Assembly: GCA_030613245.1 (NCBI GenBank)
Contig: JAUWMI010000044.1
Span: forward strand, 1-35,400
From: Candidatus Sumerlaeota bacterium
GTDB taxonomy: Bacteria > Sumerlaeota > Sumerlaeia > MWCT01 > JAUWMI01
Direction: 5' to 3'
DNA length: 35,400 nucleotides
Part shown: piece by piece, positions 1 through 27,776 of the stretch
Numbering within the stretch: position 1 is the stretch's first letter
Layout: every line of letters begins with the position of its first letter
The notes under the pieces: model-generated
What the model was told of the DNA's origin: nothing
The model's input: the letters and a program-made list of their open reading frames with translations, nothing else
Databases searched by the model: none
Made by a program: the position numbers and the translations under genes

Positions 1-1
1 C

Positions 2-697
2 GGCGGTGCGTCTCCCGCCGCGTCGGGCACGGATTACGACCTCTACTTTGTGCCACCAGCAAATGATCCCGCTGCCATGCTTGCGTTCGACCTGCTTAAC
101 TTTAATCCTGACGATGCGGCAACGGCAGAACTTTCGCTGGATACGGTTACGGTTGATCGCTTTGCACTGGATTCGCTATCAACTCCGACAGTTGTTCAGG
201 ATTACACGTTCGAGCTGAGCCAGGACGGCTGGACAACGGGAGGCGCATCGATAGCGTTCGGTTCGCCCCAGTATATCTATTCTAGCGGTGCGCTTGAGCT
301 GCGGGCAATAACCAACACGAATACGTTTGGCTTCTGGGGCAACAATCCAGCGGATATAACAATAGAGGCGAACAAACTGTATCGAGGGACATTCGAAGTG
401 CGGACAGACGTGACCAATCAGGCACTGGTACCAGAGATGCGGTTGCGGTACAACACCGGGAATCTGCAAGCCTCGCACACCTTCGGCATTTCAAGCATTG
501 GTGACGGGGCAAATTCCCCGGGCACCACAAACACAACATATGACAGGCTCTACTTCTTGCCACCGACGAACTGCGTCGGTGAAGACTTGCTCATTTCATT
601 CGACATACTCAACTTTAATCCCGACGACGCACCAACCGCAAGCCTGATCCTCGACCGCGCAATTATAGAGACTATTGAACCCCCGGCCTTGCCCTGA
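2..697 (+). CDS. C-terminal part of a secreted surface protein, paralogue of the next gene (5' partial)
   Basis: The reading frame is open from the left edge of the window to the TGA at 695-697, so only the last ~231 residues are seen and the true start lies outside. The visible part aligns without gaps of note to the last ~235 residues of the giant protein that follows. It has the end of one module (GGASPAA, YFVPPAND, LAFDLLNFNPDDA) and then one complete second module (TNTNTFGFWG, ADITIEANKLYRGTFEVRTD, LVPEMRLRYNT, FDILNFNPDDAPTASL). Both proteins stop right after PPALP. I do not recognise this module as a named family; its all-beta look suggests a jelly-roll or carbohydrate-binding-like fold, which is inference. 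The gene is in tandem with its paralogue, 185 bp upstream of it, so duplication of a whole or partial gene is likely. Function is unknown beyond probable export. Confidence 0.85.
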   Translation, partial: GGASPAASGTDYDLYFVPPANDPAAMLAFDLLNFNPDDAATAELSLDTVTVDRFALDSLSTPTVVQDYTFELSQDGWTTGGASIAFGSPQYIYSSGALELRAITNTNTFGFWGNNPADITIEANKLYRGTFEVRTDVTNQALVPEMRLRYNTGNLQASHTFGISSIGDGANSPGTTNTTYDRLYFLPPTNCVGEDLLISFDILNFNPDDAPTASLILDRAIIETIEPPALP

Positions 698-698
698 T

Positions 699-771
699 CC
701 GCCTTCGGCGGTAATGCGTGCCTTCGGCGGACAAGTTTTGCAGGTAGGGGCACGCCGTGGCGTGCCTCTAC
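699..771. repeat. Two intergenic palindromes: CCGCC-TTC-GGCGG hairpin and a GTAG-footed hairpin
   Basis: A 5 bp GC hairpin (699-711) starts 2 bases after the stop codon of the upstream gene and could help end its transcript, though no T-run follows. At 744-771 is a 28 bp palindrome starting GTAGGGGCACGCC, with a 2-base loop and one mismatch in a 13 bp stem. It belongs to the same family as the copies at 10217, 19995, 24249 and 27718. Confidence 0.7.
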
Positions 772-804
772 TACTCGCCATTCAGACTAACTGCGAAAAA
801 GCTT

Positions 805-869
805 GATTCTGGTCGGGAGCAGTGAAATAAGAAGCTTGGAGGACCGAATCCTGAGGAATCAGGCTTTTT
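805..869 (+). promoter_or_regulatory. Structured leader with terminator-like hairpin before the giant gene
   Basis: GATTC-T-GGTC (805-814) can pair with GACCGAATC (842-850) to make a 9 bp stem with one bulged T around a 27-base loop. It is followed directly by CCTGA-GGAA-TCAGG (850-863) and CTTTTTG, which looks like a weak intrinsic terminator. The ribosome binding site of the next gene (GGGGGAG, 872-878) follows at once. This may simply end the upstream transcript, or it may be an attenuator for the giant gene. It does not match a riboswitch class I know. Confidence 0.4.
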
Positions 870-882
870 GAGGGGGAGTAAA

Positions 883-3800
883 ATGCAGAAGATTCGTTCT
901 CAGAGCCGATTGGCAATATGCAAGCCGGCTTCGCTAAAAATACCAATTCTTCTAGCGTTAATCTGCTTTCTTAACGTCTCTCTGGTATGCGCCGCAGCGA
1001 CAATAAACGTCCCTGCAGACTATCTAACAATTCAGGCAGCCATCAACGCCGCATTCGATGCCGATGAAATCATTGTCTCCCCGGGCGCCTACTACGAAAA
1101 CATAAACTTCAACGGCAAAAACATTATCCTGCGCTCCACCGACCGCACCAGTAAAACCATAGTTGCCACCACCATCATTGATGGTAGAAGCACTGACAGC
1201 GTAGTGACCTTCTCCGGCACAGAACTGGCCAACTGTGTCATCTCCGGCTTTACCATTGCCAATGGCTATAGTGGCCGAGGCGGTGGTGGTATCTACGGCA
1301 ATGGTACTCTGGCAACCATCCAATACAACAATATTACAACAAACACTGCATACTACCACTACTACCATTATGGTAGTCCTTGTGGTGCGGGCATTAATGA
1401 CTGTGACGGCACTATACAGAATAATACGATCTCGGGCAACACAGCCGATAGGGATGGCGGCGGGCTCTATGGTTGCGAGGGCATTATTCTAAACAATACC
1501 ATCTTCGGCAACTCGGCTTCTGGTGGCGGTGGGCTCGCGTATTGCAATGGCACTATACAGAACAATAGGATCTGGGAGAACCTGGCAAAGTATAGTGGCG
1601 GTGGGCTTTACTGGTGCAATGGCGCCATCTTGAACAACATCATCTGTGAGAACTCATCATGGAACAACGGCGGAGGACTTGCTCGGTGCGGCGGCATAAT
1701 TCAGGATAACACTATCTCCAACAACTCTGCTGATAAACTCGGCGGCGGGATGTCCGATTGTAACGGCACCATCCTGAACAATACCATCTGGGGAAACCAG
1801 GCTGAGTACTATGGTGGTGGGCTCTACGGGTGCTGCAGTAACATCAGAAACTGTATTGTCTGGCAAAATACCGCCACTACAGACACCCAACTTGCATATT
1901 GCGCTACGCCCTATAATAGCTGCATTCAAGATTGGACCGGTGCGGGAAGAGGGAACATCTCAGCCGATCCGAGATTCGTTGATCCATACTATGGGGATTA
2001 TCACCTCCAGGGCGACTCTCCCTGTATTGATTCAGGCAATAAACTATATCTGACTGGTGAATACATTGCAGATATTGATGGGGAATGCCGAATAGCTGGT
2101 GAATCTTTGGATATAGGAAGTGATGAGTACGGCAGTTCCCCAGACCGTGATGGCGATCTTTTAGCGGACAGTGATGAGACCACTCATGGTACAGACCTCA
2201 ACAACCCGGACACAGATGATGATGGTTTACAAGACGGCGTTGAAGTGCTTCGCGGCACAAATCCAGCGGTTTTTGATACACCTCCAGGAATTTCCATTCC
2301 TGCTGATTATCTCTCCATCCAGCAAGCCCTGTTTCTGGCTTTTACCTCGGAAGTAATTACCCTACTCCCGGGAACGTATACTGAGAATATCCACTTCCTT
2401 GGGAAGAATGTGATCCTACGCTCAACCAACCCAACCAGCCCGGCCATTGTCGCCAGTACCATTATTGATGGTGGAAGCACCGATACGGTGGTTACCTTCG
2501 CTGGCACGGAACTCACCACCTGCGTCCTTTCCGGCTTCACCATTGCCAATGGTTACGGGCTCTACGGCGGTGGTATTTATGGCAACGGCTCGCTAGCGAC
2601 GATTCAGAACAACAACATAACAACAAATACTGCAGTAGCAATAGTGCGTTGGCCTGAATATTATCATTATGACGGCTGCGGGGGCGGACTTTCCGACTGC
2701 GACGGCACTATCCAGAACAGCACAATCTCGGGCAACTGGGCAGAAAGAAAAGGCGCAGGGCTCTATGATTGTGATGGAACCATCCGGGACAATCCCATTG
2801 TGGCCAACTCGGGAGAGTGCCTTGGTGCAGGGTTGTCAGAATGCGACGGTACTATCCAGCACAATAGCATATCGAATAATTCGGCGAGTAGCGGGGGCGG
2901 ACTTTATGAGTGCTCTGGCATCATCAAAGACAATACTATCTTCCGAAACACCGCTCATTATTACGGCGCAGGCCTTAGTAGTTGCGATGGCATAATCGAA
3001 AGCAATATAATCTCTGGTAACTCGGCTGGGCATGGTGGTGGAGGGTTTTTTCTCTGCGAAGCCATCATCCAGAACAATATCATTTCCGGTAACTCAGCAA
3101 AGTTCACCGGCGGCGGGCTTGCTTCTTGCTCTGGCACCATCCAGAACAATACCATCTTCGGCAACTCGGCTGATCGTGGAGGCGGGCTCTACTGGAGCAG
3201 CAGACCAGTCAATTGTATCATTTGGGCAAATATTCCCCATCAGACTTACTGGTGCCCCGATCCGGCTTATTGTTGCATAGAGCATTGGACAGAGGGCGGC
3301 ATTGGAAATATCAGTTCCGATCCTCAATTAGTTGACCCAGCCAACGCCGATTTTCATCTTCTCCCTAATTCGCCCTGTATAGATGCAGGAGGCACGGTTA
3401 CTTTAGCTCAGGACTTTGAAGGTGACCCGAGACCCTGGAATGGGTCTGCCGAGCCCCGTGGTGACGGCTCGGACTTTGACATCGGCGCGGATGAGTATTA
3501 TATTCCACCTACACCCACTCCAACCCCAACGCCTTCACCCACCCCTTGCGTGATCTATGTTCCGGAGGACTATACTCTTATCCAGGATGCCATAGATGCT
3601 GCTGCCGAGGGCTGCGAGATCATTGTCTCCCCAGGCACCTACTACGAAAACATAAACTTCTTCGGCAAAAACATCATCCTGCGCTCTACGGATCCTACCA
3701 GTCCAACCGTAGTCGCCAGCACCATCATCGACGGGAGCTTGTTCGGCTCCGTCGTGACTTTCTCTGGCAGTGAAGACGAAACTTGTGTCCTCTCTGGCTT

Positions 3801-6800
3801 CACTATCACCAACGGCAGGGCTAGAGATGGTGGCGGAATCTTTGCCGACAGTACCGAGGCAACTATACAATACAACAATATAACAGGAAATAGGGCCTAC
3901 GGGCATGGCGGTGGGCTGTGTGGGTGCAACGGCACTGGGGCAACTATACAATACAACAATATAACAGGAAATATCGCCTACGATGATGGCGGTGGACTCT
4001 ATGGATTCGACGGCACTATCCAGAACAATACCATCTCTGACAACTTGGCTACTGGAGATTATGCATTTGGCGGCGGGCTCTCAGAGTGCCACGGCACCAT
4101 CCAGAACAATACCATCTCTGACAACTCGGCTCGCCATGGCGGCGGGCTGTACTCGTGCGACGGCATTATCCAGAACAATATCATCTCACACAACTCGGCC
4201 ACTGGCAAATATGGAACTGGCGGCGGCCTCGCTTCGTGCAACGGCATCATCCAGAACAATATCATCTCACATAACTCAGCTAGTAGTGAAACTTATGGAG
4301 GTGCCGGGCTTATTTTTTGTTACGGCACCATCCAAAATAATACCATCTCACACAACTCGGCTACAGGGACAGATGCAGTTGGTGGTGGACTCTACGATTG
4401 CGACGGTGCCATCAGAAACTGTATTATCTGGCGCAATACTGCCTCATCAGCTCCTCAACTTTATCGGTGCTCCACGCCGTCTTATTCTTGCATCCAGGAT
4501 TGGACCGGCGGCGGCACTGGAAATATTTACTTTGACCCTGCACTGGTTGACCCCGATAATGGTGATTTTCATGTTCGGCCCGTTTCTCCGTGTATTGATG
4601 CAGGAGGCACTGTTACTTTGGGCCAAGATTTTGAAGGCGATCCCAGACCCTATGATGCAATATCAAATCCCTATGGAGACGGATCTGACTTTGATATCGG
4701 TGCCGATGAATTCATTGGCATTTTATCACCAAATTACCCGCCTGAGAAACCAACCAATATATCACCAGCGAATGGGGCGACTGGCGTTTTATTGATCCTT
4801 ACTTTGGAAAGCTCTACTTTTGCAGACCCGAACGCGGGTGAGCTCCATTTTGCCAGTCAGTGGCAAATTGATGACAACAGAGATTTCTCCAGTCCTGACT
4901 ATGACAGTGGCTTTGATACTGTACACAAGATAAGCATAATTGCTACGCCAAGAGATATGAAAACTTTGACTATGTACTATTGGCGAGTCAGACACATGGA
5001 CAATCGCAATAAATGGAGCGAGTGGTCTGACCCAACAAATTTTACCACTAAAGCACCCATAGTGCTTGCCGTGCCGGATGATTATTCAACTATTCAACAG
5101 GCGATAGATGCTGCCACTGACGGCGACGAAATCATAGTCTCCCCGGGCATTTACTATGAGAGCATTAACTTCAATGGCAAGAATATCGTCCTTCGTTCTA
5201 TTGACCCCACGAACCCTTCAGTGGTTGCCAGCACCATCATTGATGGCAATCGCGCTTTTGACTCCGTTGTGAGGTTTTCGGGAAGGGAACACACCACCTG
5301 CGTTCTCTCCGGCTTTACCATAACAAACGGCGCTGCTCCCTATGGTGGTGGTATAAATGGTGGTGGTATAGCTGGAATAGGCACTCAGGCAACAATCCAG
5401 CACAATAATATAACCAACAATGCTGCCTATTACAACGGATTGTATGGGGGTAATGGTGGAGGCCTGACTGGTTGTGACGGCACCATCGAGTTCAACAATA
5501 TATCTGGAAACCTTGCTACATATTTTGGAGGAGGCCTTAAATCTTGCGACGGCATTATCCAGAACAATGTTATCTCGCAAAACGTCTCTCGTATGGGTGA
5601 AGGTGGCGGGCTCTATTATTGCCGTGGCACAATACAGAACAATACCATTTCGGGCAACTCGGCTAGCAGAGGCGGCGGGCTGGCATATTGCCCGCGTGCC
5701 ATCATTAGAAATTGTATTATCTGGCAAAATATCGCCCCTTCAGGCCCGCAGCTTCGTGATGATTCCTCCACACCTTCTTATTCTTGCATCCAGGATTGGA
5801 CAGGCGGAGGGACCGGGAATATTTCCTTTGATCCCCAATTAGTTGACCCTGACAATGGCGATTTCCATCTCCAGTCAACTTCTCAGTGCATAGATGCAGG
5901 CGGCACTGTTACTTTGGCTCAAGACTTTGAAGGTGACCCAAGGCCTTGGGATGCCACAAGCGAGCCGCGTGGTGATGGCTCTGATTACGACATCGGCGCG
6001 GATGAGTATTATATTCCACCTACACCCACTCCAACTCCAACGCCTTCACCCACACCTTGCGTGATCTATGTTCCGGAGAACTATACCCTTATCCAGGATG
6101 CCATAGATGCCGCTGCCGAGGGCTGCGAGATCATTGTTTCCCCGGACACCTACTACGAGAATATCAACTTCTTCGGCAAAAACATCATCCTGCGCTCTAC
6201 GGATCCTACCAGTCCTACCGTAGTCGCCAGTACTATCATTGACGGAAATCAAGCTGGTTCCGTGGTCATATTCACAGGTGCAGAAAATGAATCCTGCGTC
6301 CTTGCCGGTTTTACCATTACCAGTGGTTATGCTCCGTATGGGGGTGGCATCAATGGCAATATCAACGGAAGCTCGGCAGATTTGGGCACCCTGGCAACTA
6401 TCCAATATAACCATATAACTTCAAACACTGCGTATAATAGCTTTCCTAGTGGTGTTGGTGGCGGACTTTACAATTGTGATGGTATCATAAAGAATAATAT
6501 CATCTCTGGCAACTCAGCTGAGTCACTTGGCGGTGGACTATGCTATTGTGACGGCATCATACAGGACAATACTATCTCACAAAACTCCGCTCATTACGGC
6601 GGAGGTCTCAATAGATGCAACGCTACAATAAAAAACAACATCATCTCTGATAACATCGCGCAGGAGTCAGGTGGTGGGCTTACTTATTGCCATGGCATCA
6701 TTGATAGAAATATTATCTCAGGCAACACTGCAGATTATGGTGGTGGGCTTGATTTCTGCCGCGGAACGATTCGGAATAATATTATTCGAGATAACATAGC

Positions 6801-9390
6801 CAGGTATTCCGAAGGCAGAGGCGGAGGAATATCTAATTGCGACGGCACAATAATAAATAATACGATTTTCAGAAATTCAGCTCCTGGAACCTCTGGTAAC
6901 GGAGGTGGCCTCTCGGGATGCAAAGGTACCCTCATAAACAATACCATTTATGGCAATTCAGCAGGGGAAAAAGCAGGTGGCCTCTCGGGATGCCATGGAT
7001 TTATCATTAATTGCATAATTTGGGGGAACTCCGCTCCTGCCGACAGTCAGGTGTGGGGTGTCAATCCTCCTTTTTACAGCTGTGTTCAGAATGGAGGCGA
7101 TAGCACACGGGGAACTATATCAGCCGATCCAAGATTCCTTGACCCTGCGAATGGAGACTTTCATCTCCACTCGGACTCACCTTGTATTGATGCTGGGAAT
7201 AAATACTATCTTTATGGGGGATACTTAGCTGATATGGATGGGGAATGTCGAATAATTGGCAGTAATGTAGATATGGGGAGCCATGAGTATGGTAGTTCGC
7301 TTGACAACGATGGAGATCTGCTCGTAGATAGTGAAGAGGGCGCTCACGGGTGCGATGCCAATAATCCCGACACTGATGGAGATGGATTATTAGATGGTTT
7401 AGAAGTGATACGGGGCACTGACCCAATTATCTTCAACACCCCTCCTGGAATTTCGGTTCCTACCGACTATCCTCTTATTCAGCAAGCATTATTCCTGGCT
7501 TTTCCCTCCGAGGAGATAACCATCTCACCGGGCACTTATTATGAGCGAATTCATATTCTGGGGAAGAACATGACGTTACAGAGTTCCAGTCCTCTTGATA
7601 GCCGTATCGTTGATGATACTGTAATTGATGGAGAAGGGCTCTTTACCGTTATAACCTTTGAGGGTACTGAAGATGAGACCTGTGTTGTGAAAGGATTATC
7701 GATTCGAAATGGCGGCTCTGCGCTTAGCGGCGGAGGGATATGTGGCAACAGAACAAAGGCGACAATTGAGAATAACAAAATTGTGAACAACATGGCCCGG
7801 AATGATGGCGCCGGAATATCCTGGTTTAATGGTATTATACAAAACAATGCTATAGTAGGAAACTCGGTTATTTGGGGTAGTGGAGGAGGACTTTGCTATT
7901 GCTGGGAAGCAACCATTCAGAACAATATCATAGCCGGCAATTCTGCCTATTATGGCGGCGGAATGTTTCGCTGCGACGATATCATACAGAACAATACTAT
8001 CTGGGGCAACTCGGCTACCGGTGGAGCATATTCTCGTGGCGGAGGGCTCGAAGATTGCGACGGTACTATCAGAAACTGTACAATCTGGGCAAATACTGCC
8101 GTGTCTATGGGTGATCAGCTTCATGAGTGCTCCACGCCTTCTTATAGTTGCATTCAGGATTGGACCGAGGGCGGCACGGGGAATATCTCTTCTGATCCGC
8201 AATTAGTAGACCCGGCAAATGGTGACTTCCGCTTGCGGTCCACGTCACCTTGCGTAGATGCGGGGGCTCTTATCGCTGACTTAACGAAGGACCTCGAAGG
8301 TGACCCGAGACCCTGGGATGGCACCTCGGAACCCCGTGGGGATGGCTCTGACTACGACATCGGCACGGATGAATACATAGGTCCTATTAGGTACGATTTC
8401 GCTGGTTCAGATGAGGGCTGGAGAGCGGGCACGGCAGTGATTTTCTCGGAACCGCAGTGGATGTTTGAGCCTGGAAGCCTGAAATTGATTTCGCACACCA
8501 ATACCAACACCTTTGGCTTCTGGGTGAGCCCAGAGAACGCTATTCCCGCGAATGAACAGTATCTCTATCGCGCGCAGTTCGTGGTCTCAACTGACGTGAC
8601 GGAGCCACCCCTTGTTCCGCAGATTCGTCTGCGCGTGAATGCGAGAAATTTTCAGCAGGCGGATTACCTTACCATTGACAGCAATGGTGACGGCGGTGCG
8701 TCGCCCGCCGCGGCGGGCACAACCTACGAACTCTATTTTATACCCCCAGCGAATGATGACTATTGCATGATGGCTTTTGATCTGCTGAACTTTAATCCTT
8801 CGGATGCCCCCGATGCAGAGCTAGCTCTGGAGAGCGTGCTCGTCGAGCGCTTCAGACTGGATACTCTGGATGAGTCTACGACAATAACCTGGACCTATGA
8901 TTTTGAGTCGAGTCAAGAGTTCTGGTTTACCGGTAATGGAACTCCTGAGTTTACCGATCCCGAGTCCTTTTGGGCTGATGGAGCGTTGCATTTGCGGTCA
9001 ACGACAAATACCAACACGTTCGGCTACTGGGGGAGTGATCCGGCGGATATAACGATTGAGGCAAACCAATTGTATCGGGGAACGTTTGAGGTAAGAACAG
9101 ACGAACCGGAGCGAAGCCTTGTGCCACAGATGCGCCTGCGGTTCAACACCGCCAATTTGCAAGCATCGCGCTCGCTTGAAATCGCCAGCGCAGGTGACGG
9201 CGCAAATTCCCCGGGTACCGCAAACACCACATACGCCCGGCTCTACTTCTTGCCTCCAGCGAACTGCGTCGGCGAAGGCTTAATCGTTTCGTTCGACATA
9301 CTCAACTTCAATCCCGGAGATGCACCAACTGCCAGCCTGGTTCTCGACCGGGCAACCATCGAGACTCTCTCACCTCCGGCCTTGCCCTGA
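883..9390 (+). CDS. Giant secreted multi-module right-handed parallel beta-helix protein (2835 aa)
   Basis: The ATG at 883 is chosen because GGGGGAG lies 5 bases upstream and a signal peptide follows (basic start, then hydrophobic residues ~17-36 ending CAAA). Six beta-helix modules start near residues 43, 470, 890, 1395, 1727 and 2190. Each opens with a 'VPxDYxxIQxAIDAA' coil and a 'GKNIxLRS' coil, runs through coils of about 21-24 residues of the type GGGLxxCDGTIQNNTISGNSA, and ends 'SPCIDAG...DIGADEY', as in choice-of-anchor Q proteins. Linkers are calcium-binding thrombospondin-3-like Asp repeats (~421-455, ~2140-2176), PTPTPTPTPSPTP (~876, ~1713) and a fibronectin III-like domain (~1286-1390). 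Residues ~2503-2835 hold two copies of the C-terminal module shared with the upstream gene. Each coil carries a Cys at the same place. The fold suggests a surface adhesin or polysaccharide-binding/lyase-like protein; no catalytic residues can be assigned. No C-terminal membrane anchor or sorting motif is recognised. Confidence 0.9.
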   Translation: MQKIRSQSRLAICKPASLKIPILLALICFLNVSLVCAAATINVPADYLTIQAAINAAFDADEIIVSPGAYYENINFNGKNIILRSTDRTSKTIVATTIIDGRSTDSVVTFSGTELANCVISGFTIANGYSGRGGGGIYGNGTLATIQYNNITTNTAYYHYYHYGSPCGAGINDCDGTIQNNTISGNTADRDGGGLYGCEGIILNNTIFGNSASGGGGLAYCNGTIQNNRIWENLAKYSGGGLYWCNGAILNNIICENSSWNNGGGLARCGGIIQDNTISNNSADKLGGGMSDCNGTILNNTIWGNQAEYYGGGLYGCCSNIRNCIVWQNTATTDTQLAYCATPYNSCIQDWTGAGRGNISADPRFVDPYYGDYHLQGDSPCIDSGNKLYLTGEYIADIDGECRIAGESLDIGSDEYGSSPDRDGDLLADSDETTHGTDLNNPDTDDDGLQDGVEVLRGTNPAVFDTPPGISIPADYLSIQQALFLAFTSEVITLLPGTYTENIHFLGKNVILRSTNPTSPAIVASTIIDGGSTDTVVTFAGTELTTCVLSGFTIANGYGLYGGGIYGNGSLATIQNNNITTNTAVAIVRWPEYYHYDGCGGGLSDCDGTIQNSTISGNWAERKGAGLYDCDGTIRDNPIVANSGECLGAGLSECDGTIQHNSISNNSASSGGGLYECSGIIKDNTIFRNTAHYYGAGLSSCDGIIESNIISGNSAGHGGGGFFLCEAIIQNNIISGNSAKFTGGGLASCSGTIQNNTIFGNSADRGGGLYWSSRPVNCIIWANIPHQTYWCPDPAYCCIEHWTEGGIGNISSDPQLVDPANADFHLLPNSPCIDAGGTVTLAQDFEGDPRPWNGSAEPRGDGSDFDIGADEYYIPPTPTPTPTPSPTPCVIYVPEDYTLIQDAIDAAAEGCEIIVSPGTYYENINFFGKNIILRSTDPTSPTVVASTIIDGSLFGSVVTFSGSEDETCVLSGFTITNGRARDGGGIFADSTEATIQYNNITGNRAYGHGGGLCGCNGTGATIQYNNITGNIAYDDGGGLYGFDGTIQNNTISDNLATGDYAFGGGLSECHGTIQNNTISDNSARHGGGLYSCDGIIQNNIISHNSATGKYGTGGGLASCNGIIQNNIISHNSASSETYGGAGLIFCYGTIQNNTISHNSATGTDAVGGGLYDCDGAIRNCIIWRNTASSAPQLYRCSTPSYSCIQDWTGGGTGNIYFDPALVDPDNGDFHVRPVSPCIDAGGTVTLGQDFEGDPRPYDAISNPYGDGSDFDIGADEFIGILSPNYPPEKPTNISPANGATGVLLILTLESSTFADPNAGELHFASQWQIDDNRDFSSPDYDSGFDTVHKISIIATPRDMKTLTMYYWRVRHMDNRNKWSEWSDPTNFTTKAPIVLAVPDDYSTIQQAIDAATDGDEIIVSPGIYYESINFNGKNIVLRSIDPTNPSVVASTIIDGNRAFDSVVRFSGREHTTCVLSGFTITNGAAPYGGGINGGGIAGIGTQATIQHNNITNNAAYYNGLYGGNGGGLTGCDGTIEFNNISGNLATYFGGGLKSCDGIIQNNVISQNVSRMGEGGGLYYCRGTIQNNTISGNSASRGGGLAYCPRAIIRNCIIWQNIAPSGPQLRDDSSTPSYSCIQDWTGGGTGNISFDPQLVDPDNGDFHLQSTSQCIDAGGTVTLAQDFEGDPRPWDATSEPRGDGSDYDIGADEYYIPPTPTPTPTPSPTPCVIYVPENYTLIQDAIDAAAEGCEIIVSPDTYYENINFFGKNIILRSTDPTSPTVVASTIIDGNQAGSVVIFTGAENESCVLAGFTITSGYAPYGGGINGNINGSSADLGTLATIQYNHITSNTAYNSFPSGVGGGLYNCDGIIKNNIISGNSAESLGGGLCYCDGIIQDNTISQNSAHYGGGLNRCNATIKNNIISDNIAQESGGGLTYCHGIIDRNIISGNTADYGGGLDFCRGTIRNNIIRDNIARYSEGRGGGISNCDGTIINNTIFRNSAPGTSGNGGGLSGCKGTLINNTIYGNSAGEKAGGLSGCHGFIINCIIWGNSAPADSQVWGVNPPFYSCVQNGGDSTRGTISADPRFLDPANGDFHLHSDSPCIDAGNKYYLYGGYLADMDGECRIIGSNVDMGSHEYGSSLDNDGDLLVDSEEGAHGCDANNPDTDGDGLLDGLEVIRGTDPIIFNTPPGISVPTDYPLIQQALFLAFPSEEITISPGTYYERIHILGKNMTLQSSSPLDSRIVDDTVIDGEGLFTVITFEGTEDETCVVKGLSIRNGGSALSGGGICGNRTKATIENNKIVNNMARNDGAGISWFNGIIQNNAIVGNSVIWGSGGGLCYCWEATIQNNIIAGNSAYYGGGMFRCDDIIQNNTIWGNSATGGAYSRGGGLEDCDGTIRNCTIWANTAVSMGDQLHECSTPSYSCIQDWTEGGTGNISSDPQLVDPANGDFRLRSTSPCVDAGALIADLTKDLEGDPRPWDGTSEPRGDGSDYDIGTDEYIGPIRYDFAGSDEGWRAGTAVIFSEPQWMFEPGSLKLISHTNTNTFGFWVSPENAIPANEQYLYRAQFVVSTDVTEPPLVPQIRLRVNARNFQQADYLTIDSNGDGGASPAAAGTTYELYFIPPANDDYCMMAFDLLNFNPSDAPDAELALESVLVERFRLDTLDESTTITWTYDFESSQEFWFTGNGTPEFTDPESFWADGALHLRSTTNTNTFGYWGSDPADITIEANQLYRGTFEVRTDEPERSLVPQMRLRFNTANLQASRSLEIASAGDGANSPGTANTTYARLYFLPPANCVGEGLIVSFDILNFNPGDAPTASLVLDRATIETLSPPALP
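3481..3720 (+). repeat. Near-identical internal DNA duplication, copy 1 (PT linker plus start of beta-helix module 3)
   Basis: This block matches 5992-6231 with about 13 differences in 240 bases by eye, at an exact spacing of 2511 bp (837 codons), so the frame is kept. It covers the end of a module (DIGADEYY), the PTPTPTPTPSPTP linker and the first ~57 residues of the next module. Only a few differences change the protein (for example EDY/ENY and PGT/PDT). The flanks are far less alike, which points to gene conversion or a recent segmental duplication. Confidence 0.85.
5992..6231 (+). repeat. Near-identical internal DNA duplication, copy 2 (PT linker plus start of beta-helix module 5)
   Basis: This is the partner of the 3481-3720 block in the same gene. 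Both encode a PTPTPTPTPSPTP linker and the first coils of a beta-helix module (CVIYVPE, AIDAAAEGCEIIVSP, NINFFGKNIILRS). Recombination between the copies would remove or add exactly 837 residues in frame. Confidence 0.85.
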
Positions 9391-9851
9391 GATGGACGAG
9401 CAATTACAATTTTTGGGTGCCTGGAACGCATCCGGGAATTAATATTTTCAACTTCCGAATCGTCTAATTGATGACAAAGAACAATTCGTAAGAACTGCCA
9501 CGGAGACATCTGGCGCGTTAGCGATCATCAGATGGAATAGCCGTCGCGGAGTATGGATAAGAAAGACCGCGACAACAAGACCAGGTGTACCAAACTGTCC
9601 GCCCAGGCGCTCAGGATGGTCCGTATCGTGCAGCGCTCCCTGGACTCCTGTGCCGCTGGCCCCGATTCTTATCTTCTAACCCCCATAATCCCAGTTGTAT
9701 ACGCGAAAGCAAAAGAATCTGCTGGATTGGAATCAAAATTGCAAATAAGAAGTTGTGAACTTTAGAACTTTTTGAATGCTTCAGCTCCTAAAACGCTCTT
9801 ATCAGGCTTGGGCAAGGTCATTGAGGCGATTTACCCGCCATTGGCGCGGTG

Positions 9852-10216: not shown

Positions 10217-10244
10217 GTAGGGGCACGCCGCAGCGTGCCCCTAC
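10217..10244. repeat. GTAG-footed palindrome (perfect 12 bp stem)
   Basis: GTAGGGGCACGC and its exact complement GCGTGCCCCTAC flank a 4-base CGCA loop. It is nearly the same as the copy at 744-771 and shares its ends with the copies at 19995, 24249 and 27718. Confidence 0.85.
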
Positions 10245-14207: not shown

Positions 14208-14362
14208 TTTCGAAGTGCGGTAGCGGAACGCAGTGAAGCAACCGCCTACCCGCCTTAGGCGGGCTTTGTTAGTCGCGGGCTTCGATTACGAGAAAAGCCG
14301 AAGCTGCGCTTCGGCGTATGAAAGCGCAAGCTATGCTATTGCGTCGCTTGCGCACTCCAAAG
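14208..14362. repeat. RAYT-associated palindromic element, copy A
   Basis: About 155 bp with inverted ends (AAGTGCGGTAGCG... and ...CGCACTCCAAAGA). Inside are a GCGGTAGCG...CAACCGC hairpin, CCCGCC-TTA-GGCGGG, GCCGAAGC-TGC-GCTTCGGC and GCGCAAGC...GCTTGCGC stems. It is organised like copies B and C and lies 167 bp upstream of the transposase start. Confidence 0.75.
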
Positions 14363-14391
14363 ATAATTATAGGTAACCTATGACTCTTAAG

Positions 14392-14520
14392 CTTTGGAGT
14401 GCGGCAGCGAAACGTAGTGTAGCTACCGCTTTGCATAACATAAGCGCAAGCTTATGCAATCATCATTTATGCTTACAAAAGTGAAAGCGCCCGGATAATC
14501 TATCCGAACGCACTCCAAAA
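14392..14520. repeat. RAYT-associated palindromic element, copy B (upstream boundary of the transposase)
   Basis: About 129 bp, from CTTTGGAGTGCGG to CGCACTCCAAAA, so the ends form a near-perfect 12 bp inverted repeat. The inner hairpin GCGGCAGCG...TAGCTACCGC and a GAAAGCG box before the right end match copy C. It stops 8 bases before the transposase ATG, and its right edge abuts the ribosome binding site (AAGG). Confidence 0.8.
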
Positions 14521-14528
14521 GGTAAAGT

Positions 14529-15074
14529 ATGTCAGAAAAGGATAAAAGTGGGTGGCATCATAGCCCAATGCACGTTTTTGTACCAAGCTCAACTTATATG
14601 GTTACGGGAGGAACATATAAGAAACAGCCCTTCTTTCAAGGAGAAAGACGACTTAGTTTTCTCCTTGAACAACTATTTCTGTGTGCGAAAAGATACACCT
14701 GGCAGTTGCAGGCTTGGTGCATATTACCTAATCATTACCATTTTATTAGCATGGCGCCAGCAGAAGTTGCCAGGCTATCTGATTTTGTGAGAGATTTTCA
14801 TTCCCGCACCGCATTGTATGTGAATGAATTAGATGGAACACCATCGCGCAAGGTCTGGTTTCAATACTGGGATACATGTATTACATTTGAGAAAAGTTAT
14901 TATGCTCGATTAAATTATGTTCATAATAATGCAGTGAAACATCAAATAGCAAACGTTGCTACCGAGTATCCTTTCTGTTCGGCTCGCTGGTTTGAACAAA
15001 ATGTTGAGTCTTCTTTTTATCGCATGGCTAGTTCGTTTAAATACGATAAATTGAACGTGGTCGATGATTTTTGA
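14529..15074 (+). CDS. REP-associated tyrosine transposase (RAYT, Y1/HUH family)
   Basis: The 181-residue product belongs to the IS200-like Y1 transposases of the REP-associated group. These single-strand DNA nucleases/ligases recognise hairpins and are thought to spread REP repeats. The HUH metal-binding pair is in WCILPNHYHFI (H69, H71), and the likely catalytic tyrosine is Y130 in NYVHNNAVKH, the usual RAYT signature. Length is typical and the frame is intact, so the enzyme may be active. The ATG at 14529 has AAGG six bases upstream, right at the edge of palindromic copy B. Palindromic copies A, B and C around the gene are its most probable substrates. Base composition (AT-rich) differs from the surrounding repeats. 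No second open reading frame (no tnpB) is present. Confidence 0.93.
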   Translation: MSEKDKSGWHHSPMHVFVPSSTYMVTGGTYKKQPFFQGERRLSFLLEQLFLCAKRYTWQLQAWCILPNHYHFISMAPAEVARLSDFVRDFHSRTALYVNELDGTPSRKVWFQYWDTCITFEKSYYARLNYVHNNAVKHQIANVATEYPFCSARWFEQNVESSFYRMASSFKYDKLNVVDDF

Positions 15075-15075
15075 C

Positions 15076-15220
15076 TTTTGGATTGCGGTAGCGGGGCGTA
15101 ATATAGCTACCGCTTTCCCGCTATAGGCGGACCTTATTACTCGTAAGCGAAGCTTACGAGAGAAGCCGCAGCTGCGCTTCGGCCTATGAAAGCGTCCGCC
15201 TTAGCGAACGCACTCCGAAA
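15076..15220. repeat. RAYT-associated palindromic element, copy C (downstream boundary of the transposase)
   Basis: About 145 bp, from TTTTGGATTGCGGTAGCG to GAACGCACTCCGAAA, with near-inverted ends. Inside are GCGGTAGCG...TAGCTACCGC, CTCGTAAGC-GAA-GCTTACGAG and GAAGCCGCAGC-GCTTCGGC stems. It begins 1 base after the transposase stop codon and could act as its terminator. Confidence 0.8.
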
Positions 15221-15270
15221 ATAATTGTAGTAGCCAAAGCGCTTGGAGAAAATGTAAAGGAAGGTGAGTG

Positions 15271-19994: not shown

Positions 19995-20021
19995 GTAGGG
20001 GCGTTTAATTAAACGCCCTAC
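19995..20021. repeat. GTAG-footed palindrome with AT-rich core
   Basis: GTAGGGGCGTTTAA pairs with TTAAACGCCCTAC, with one bulged G and no loop. The ends are those of the GTAGGGGC family while the inner stem is entirely different from the 744 and 10217 copies, yet still pairs. Confidence 0.85.
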
Positions 20022-24248: not shown

Positions 24249-24275
24249 GTAGGGGCGTATTGCAATACGCCCTAC
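24249..24275. repeat. GTAG-footed palindrome with a third core sequence
   Basis: GTAGGGGCGTATTG pairs with CAATACGCCCTAC with the same one-base G bulge as the copy at 19995. The core (GTATTG/CAATAC) differs from all others but pairs exactly. Confidence 0.85.
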
Positions 24276-27717: not shown

Positions 27718-27776
27718 TAGGGGCAGGTCCTTGTGCCTGCCCTATTATGTTGGGCAACCACGAGGGTTGCCCCTAC
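27718..27776. repeat. Compound GTAG-type palindrome, two hairpins head to head
   Basis: The first hairpin pairs TAGGGGCAGG with CCTGCCCTA; the second pairs TGGGCAACC with GGTTGCCCCTA; six bases separate them. The outer ends (TAGGGGCA and TGCCCCTAC) are also inverted, so this looks like a REPIN: two REP-like units facing each other. Confidence 0.75.

Follow-up and report, generated by a model that had tools for sequence, protein, structure and literature searches.

The stretch of DNA analyzed here (the window, 35,400 nt) makes up the whole of contig C72 from a Candidatus Sumerlaeota bacterium, whose assembly comprises 4.29 Mb and is 96% complete. At its core lies a gene for a 181-aa RAYT, a TnpAREP-like HUH Y1 transposase (14529..15074, + strand) recognized by its motifs, family models, and predicted structure. 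This gene is enclosed by three REPIN-like elements (A, B, and C), which can be aligned with one another and are all in + orientation. The order along the contig is a DUF255/thioredoxin-like gene, A, B, the RAYT gene, C, and cytochrome bd genes, the outer neighbors having been named by eye from their translations. The earlier note on this DNA had described an intact RAYT surrounded by three related elements with near-inverted ends, and our analysis confirms both the elements and the ORF. Positions 1-9400 of the window carry long coding repeats with 72-nt units in blocks of ~1.2-1.3 kb, which probably encode a repetitive protein that is secreted or found at the cell surface.

Architecture of the elements

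Each element pairs two inverted REP hairpins, separated by additional hairpins, and has the ends TTTGGAGT…ACTCCAAA. The left REP consists of a short foot (GAAGT, GGAGT, and GGATT in A, B, and C, respectively) followed by GCGGTAGC…GCTACCGC, and the inverted right REP ends in ACTCC, as part of a GCACTCC shared by all three. Element A (14208..14362, + strand; 121 bits with the covariance model described below) has its foot at 14212-14216, a hairpin GCGGTAGC...GCAACCGC, inner hairpins, and a right inverted REP ending in GCGCACTCC. Element B (14392..14521, + strand; 89 bits) has its foot at 14396-14400 and a stem formed by 14401-14408 and 14422-14429, while in element C (15075..15221, + strand; 117 bits) the foot is at 15080-15084 and the stem is formed by 15085-15092 and 15106-15113, both elements having the right end ACGCACTCC. 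The near-inverted ends that had been reported are real, but the view of each element as a single palindrome gives way to one of paired inverted REP hairpins with inner hairpins. Since the outermost TTTGGAGT…ACTCCAAA sequences are complementary, most copies can also be folded as one long hairpin. The foot pattern matches six times in the window, against 1.1 +/- 1.06 times in shuffled sequence, and single-stranded DNA folding of A, B, and C gives z scores of -3.6, -4.7, and -5.5, respectively. A search of Rfam returned no match above threshold.

As had been noted, B and C almost touch the coding sequence. B ends ~7-8 nt upstream of the RAYT ATG, its 3′ edge (AAAAGG) overlapping the probable ribosome-binding site of the gene, and C starts at the first base past the TGA. 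The further proposal that the repeats carry a promoter and a terminator for the gene is not borne out, since the best promoter-like sites in the repeats match 9 of 12 positions in a number close to that in shuffles, and a scan of the repeats found no + strand terminator downstream of the RAYT gene. On the - strand, A and B form terminator-like hairpins.

The enzyme is a REP-associated tyrosine transposase

As for the enzyme, it scores 95.4 bits with the NF047646 model (cut-off 80) and 24.7 bits with Pfam Y1_Tnp (cut-off 23). Its AlphaFold model has a pLDDT of 90.8, and the best PDB match found by Foldseek (E = 2.7e-9) is 4er8, a REP-bound TnpAREP. It contains an HUH motif (N68-H69-Y70-H71), a catalytic Tyr (Y130), and a guide loop (W110-F-Q-Y-W-D-T-C-I-T119). 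To place these motifs in a family, six RAYTs were scanned against 85,000 species genomes, from which the best 80 loci (42-56% identity, from ~20 phyla) were taken as the clade. Chloroflexus islandicus and Rubritalea profundi are among its carriers. The N68-H69-Y70-H71 motif, Y130, and N134 are kept in 79-80 of the 80 sequences, with H71 and Y130 in 80/80 and H69 in 79/80, and residue 135 is Ala in the window RAYT and Pro in most relatives. The Y motif of the clade is Y[V/T]HxN[P/A], with Val at the second position in 74 sequences, Thr in 6, and Ile in none. With family model, motifs, and TnpAREP fold in agreement, the window gene is a REP-associated tyrosine transposase. An IS200/IS605 insertion sequence was considered and rejected, because the genome has only one copy of this transposase and the adjoining ORFs are not tnpB. 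A plasmid search for close relatives of the RAYT returned matches at 25% identity only.

The elements are dispersed in the host genome

A covariance model built from eight element copies and run on the host genome produced 39 matches at ~22 distinct places (best E = 1e-35); a search for other copies had been proposed in the earlier note. Of the 17 best-scoring places, 13 overlap no longer ORF (100-aa ORF scan). The elements are hence dispersed, and one gene sits amid three of them. REP hairpins on both sides of a RAYT gene that recur around the genome define a REPtron, and two inverted REPs dispersed as full-length units are REPINs; both are observed here. The REPIN units are mostly 130-185 nt long in the host genome. 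They measure 132-136 nt in G013, one of two species of a single genus (with G019) to which we return below, where 26 uniform +/- units have flanks that appear unrelated apart from CTTT/AAAG.

In the host genome, most dispersed REPINs lie within a larger unit, which is bounded by outer inverted repeats (TAACTCAAAGTGCCCG...CGGGCACTTTGAGTTA). Such composite units occur on contigs C7, C54, C41, C26, C75, C40, C55, C71, and C57 (L225-L241, L280-L298). The outer repeat is found on both sides in at least 8 of the 14 strongly scoring dispersed copies and on one side in 2-4 more, and the arms between it and the REPIN are homologous among C54, C41b, C26b, and C55 (84-96%), as if copied whole. It is quite possible, although not our preferred reading, that the host's dispersed elements are passengers of another mobile element, which has outer repeats and an unrelated (perhaps DDE) transposase and once picked up a REPIN, in which case the RAYT would not be responsible for the spread here. 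However, the outer repeat is absent at the three copies beside the RAYT gene and at dispersed copies C17 and C37, and no transposase was seen adjoining the two outer ends examined. Moreover, the unrelated flanks of the 26 G013 REPINs and the persistence of the RAYT-REP link in other phyla, with other repeats, argue against it. Lone outer ends devoid of a REPIN were also observed (C65:47940, C68:2373, and C59:5633).

The RAYT is paired with its own repeat in ~20 phyla

The pairing of the RAYT with cognate REP/REPIN elements, as originally proposed, holds in nearly all of the 80 relatives. When all hairpins within 400 nt of the 80 clade RAYTs were collected, with no foot assumed, GAGT preceded 132 hairpins near the gene (52 loci) compared to 22 far away, and GACT preceded 25 compared to 5. 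The refined repeat of the clade is [C/T]TTT-GGA[G/C]T-GC-8-bp stem, 2-3 nt loop-GC-TTT. In 76/81 loci, a mechanical finder detected REPs at most 400 nt from the gene; when the missed loci were inspected by eye, they showed variant feet or longer stems, and only L068 had no recognizable REP. REP density per 400 nt is 1.7 adjoining the gene and 0.085 in distant bins, an ~20-fold difference, and the first downstream REP lies 4-12 nt past the stop codon in 21 loci.

This tight placement, together with the overlap of B with the probable ribosome-binding site and the - strand hairpins of A and B that resemble terminators, would fit an alternative in which the gene-adjacent hairpins are retained because they regulate the RAYT or the downstream cytochrome bd genes (by blocking translation, by attenuation, or by protecting the mRNA) and are not substrates of transposition. 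We consider this unlikely, because the same elements stand beside unrelated genes elsewhere in this genome and in many others, and because a proper + strand terminator is missing after the gene. Regulation and mobility are nevertheless compatible and do not exclude each other.

Within the repeat, the foot and basal stem pairs 1-2 (GC/CG) are invariant, while pairs 3-6 swap among GC, TA, AT, and CG in a compensatory manner. The suggestion that variation of the inner stems between fixed ends hints at what the enzyme reads is therefore upheld in form. In one subset of the repeats, which is common among Verrucomicrobiota and Planctomycetota, a G·A mismatch close to the loop is fixed. The element families were also compared with the RAYT phylogeny, as had been proposed. 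Apical mismatch type and loop length track the RAYT tree better than 300/300 label shuffles, but the foot letter (GAGT or other) is only weakly linked to it, 27/300 shuffles being equally low. REP features that follow the RAYT tree can be produced by descent alone. The tree interleaves phyla, but most of its branches are weakly supported, so that horizontal transfer of the clade RAYT is suggested rather than shown. Since GGACT and GGAGT REPs share identical TTT flanks, the data do not show a simple pairing of guide and cleavage site, and no rule for covariation of the cleavage site with the foot letter could be derived from these flanks. Their conservation suggests that cutting may take place in CTTT to either side of the REP.

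Genomes with repeats and no detected RAYT

When one generic pattern was used for the search, dispersed REPs were found in 40 of 50 RAYT-bearing genomes, with up to 111 per genome, compared to 0-1 for the control. Within the window's class, a strict pattern detects the repeats in 6/7 genomes with a clade RAYT and in 11/32 without a detected one (Fisher p = 0.03). The earlier note had held that elements found widely without this RAYT would speak against the pairing, and these 11 class members, with repeats and no detected clade RAYT, are in part such a case. Among genomes of this kind are G013 and G019, in which we counted 161 and 234 REPs, respectively, and detected no clade RAYT in the assemblies. 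The order of the REP pairs is mostly opposite in these two species, +/- in G013 and -/+ in G019. Since assemblies are prone to breaks at these repeats, 19/80 RAYT loci being no more than 700 nt away from a contig end, some of the RAYT absences may be artifacts. Loss of the RAYT gene with the REPs left behind is an equally possible explanation.

We then compared ~290 kb of G019 with 1.2 Mb of G013, whose genes are ~85% identical, checking all REP clusters for colinear flanks. This yielded equal-length matches or unclear indels only and no usable empty site, because the intergenic DNA is too diverged. With no empty site found and the RAYT gene present in a single copy in the host genome, the idea that the whole locus is a mobile unit finds no support.

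The guide loop differs from that of GTAG readers

In E. coli TnpAREP, the guide is contacted by W94, Q95, E100, H101, and R104 (PMC6006769). Alignment to 4er8 places W110, F111, D115, T116, and T119 of the window RAYT at these positions, the numbering of the contacts having been matched via the W-Q-x4-E-H-x2-R pattern in a sequence alignment to this one distant structure. Over the 80 relatives, these positions are occupied by W in 80, F/H/Y in 75, D/E in 80, T/S in 77, and T in 76. By this alignment, three of the five E. coli guide contacts are replaced clade-wide, Q95 by F/H/Y, H101 by T/S, and R104 by T. The change of E100 to Asp is also present in known GTAG readers (PMC6006769).

The host genome contains a second RAYT (contig C50, L279/L311) of 229 aa, which keeps the W-Q…E-H…R residues (VWQRNYYEHIIR) and whose gene bears GTAG-GGGC hairpins. 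GTAG-footed REPs (GTAGGGGC hairpins) are found in the window as well, with five pattern matches at four places (10217-10244, 19995-20018, 24249-24272, and 27752-27776). Two REPtrons that differ in foot and guide loop hence coexist in one genome, and this co-occurrence of GA[G/C]T (GAST) and GTAG systems makes the strongest case for a link between foot and guide loop.

Other genes of this type were seen. Contig C92 (L310 852-1454) carries a third gene resembling Y1 transposases (200 aa). ACAGGC hairpins are found at its coding sequence and also within it, which looks like the result of repeat insertion. More distant RAYTs (L016, L032, and L021) are flanked by hairpins with GGGAGC or GGGAAC feet, suggesting further non-GTRG guide classes; in the enzymes of L016 and L021, W-Q is retained and D-R stands where E-H would be.

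Relation to known systems

The foot of canonical RAYT-linked REPs is GT[A/G]G, with atypical ones noted for subclass 2.6 and class 3 (CnGA) (PMC6006769), and GTAG and CGTC repeats have been cataloged in eight phyla (PMC3733652). The tetranucleotide is important for cleavage by the enzymes of E. coli, Stenotrophomonas, and Marinomonas, and it sets the cleavage site in the last of these (PMC8266576). A literature search, whose reach did not extend to some key papers and all supplements, found no description of GGAGT-footed REPs.

The present system shares with E. coli TnpAREP (PDB 4er8; PMC8266576, PMC2817692) an HUH Y1 fold, REP hairpins flanking the gene, dispersed REPs, and inverted REP pairs. 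In contrast, the foot is GA[G/C]T instead of GTAG, and in most clade relatives the 8-bp stem is perfect or has a single mismatch and the loop measures 2-3 nt. As in Pseudomonas REPINs (PMC3116915), two inverted REPs are dispersed as one unit; however, REP sequence and foot are different here, and the host copies mostly lie inside a larger unit. With class 3 and subclass 2.6 (PMC6006769), the clade shares atypical, non-GTRG flanking structures that have copies elsewhere in the genome, but class 3 has a CnGA foot and a Y----Q motif, and subclass 2.6, mostly from Bacteroidetes, has WQ and YIH[QN]NP. TnpAY1 subclass 2.8 (PMC6006769) resembles the clade in its NHYH motif, the aromatic residue after W, a length of ~200 aa, and relatives in unrelated phyla. 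Membership in this subclass, described from Cyanobacteria with YIHYNP and GT[A/G]G REPs, was rejected because of the Y[V/T]HxN[P/A] motif and GAST feet of the clade.

The feet at the locus (GAAGT, GGAGT, and GGATT) and the clade consensus (GGA[G/C]T) are not the GT[A/G]G expected of a canonical REPtron. Since REPtrons with atypical feet are recognized in some described subclasses, the GAST foot makes this a variant REPtron rather than excluding it. That it is an ordinary GTAG REPtron, for example of Quentin subclass 2.8, whose GGAGT foot is mere drift, is very improbable despite the resemblance of NHYH and W[FHY] to that subclass (NHYH, W[YH], YIHYNP; PMC6006769) and its mentioned relatives in other phyla, because GAGT/GACT feet recur in ~20 phyla, Ile never occupies the second Y-motif position in the clade (V74, T6), and the canonical set of guide residues is present in the host's true GTAG RAYT.

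Discussion

Together, these findings make it probable that the locus is a REPtron, consisting of a single-copy HUH Y1 RAYT and the REPINs on which it acts, and that it belongs to a cross-phylum clade with a GA[G/C]T foot in place of GT[A/G]G. By analogy with characterized systems, such a REPtron might work as follows. When the DNA is single-stranded, on the lagging strand or in an extruded hairpin, the enzyme would bind a REP hairpin via its GC/CG base and 8-bp stem, and would read the unpaired GAST foot as a guide. Tyr130 would then nick beside the REP and the strands would be rejoined, so that REPs or REPINs might be copied or relocated in trans, the gene itself remaining in place. The copies beside the gene would be substrates of the enzyme and may also regulate its gene.

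More tentatively, in what is for us nearly an even call, we propose that this is a guide-recoded lineage, in which pocket and foot changed together (from W-Q...E-H...R with GTAG to W-F/H...D-T...T with GAST). It would provide a second, orthogonal single-stranded DNA targeting specificity beside a canonical GTAG REPtron in one cell, and would have been kept across ~20 phyla. In either case, GAST-foot REPtrons form a widespread class that is apparently so far undescribed.

What is known of RAYT specificity comes from a few proteobacterial GTAG systems. With its different foot, its replaced guide contacts, and, in the host genome, a GTAG system that serves as an internal control, this clade allows a direct test of the guide-reading model and yields predictions on the retargeting of such nickases. 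The GGAGTGCGG-type repeats scattered in Verrucomicrobiota, Acidobacteriota, Chloroflexota, Sumerlaeota, and others can now be viewed as REPs with a named partner enzyme.
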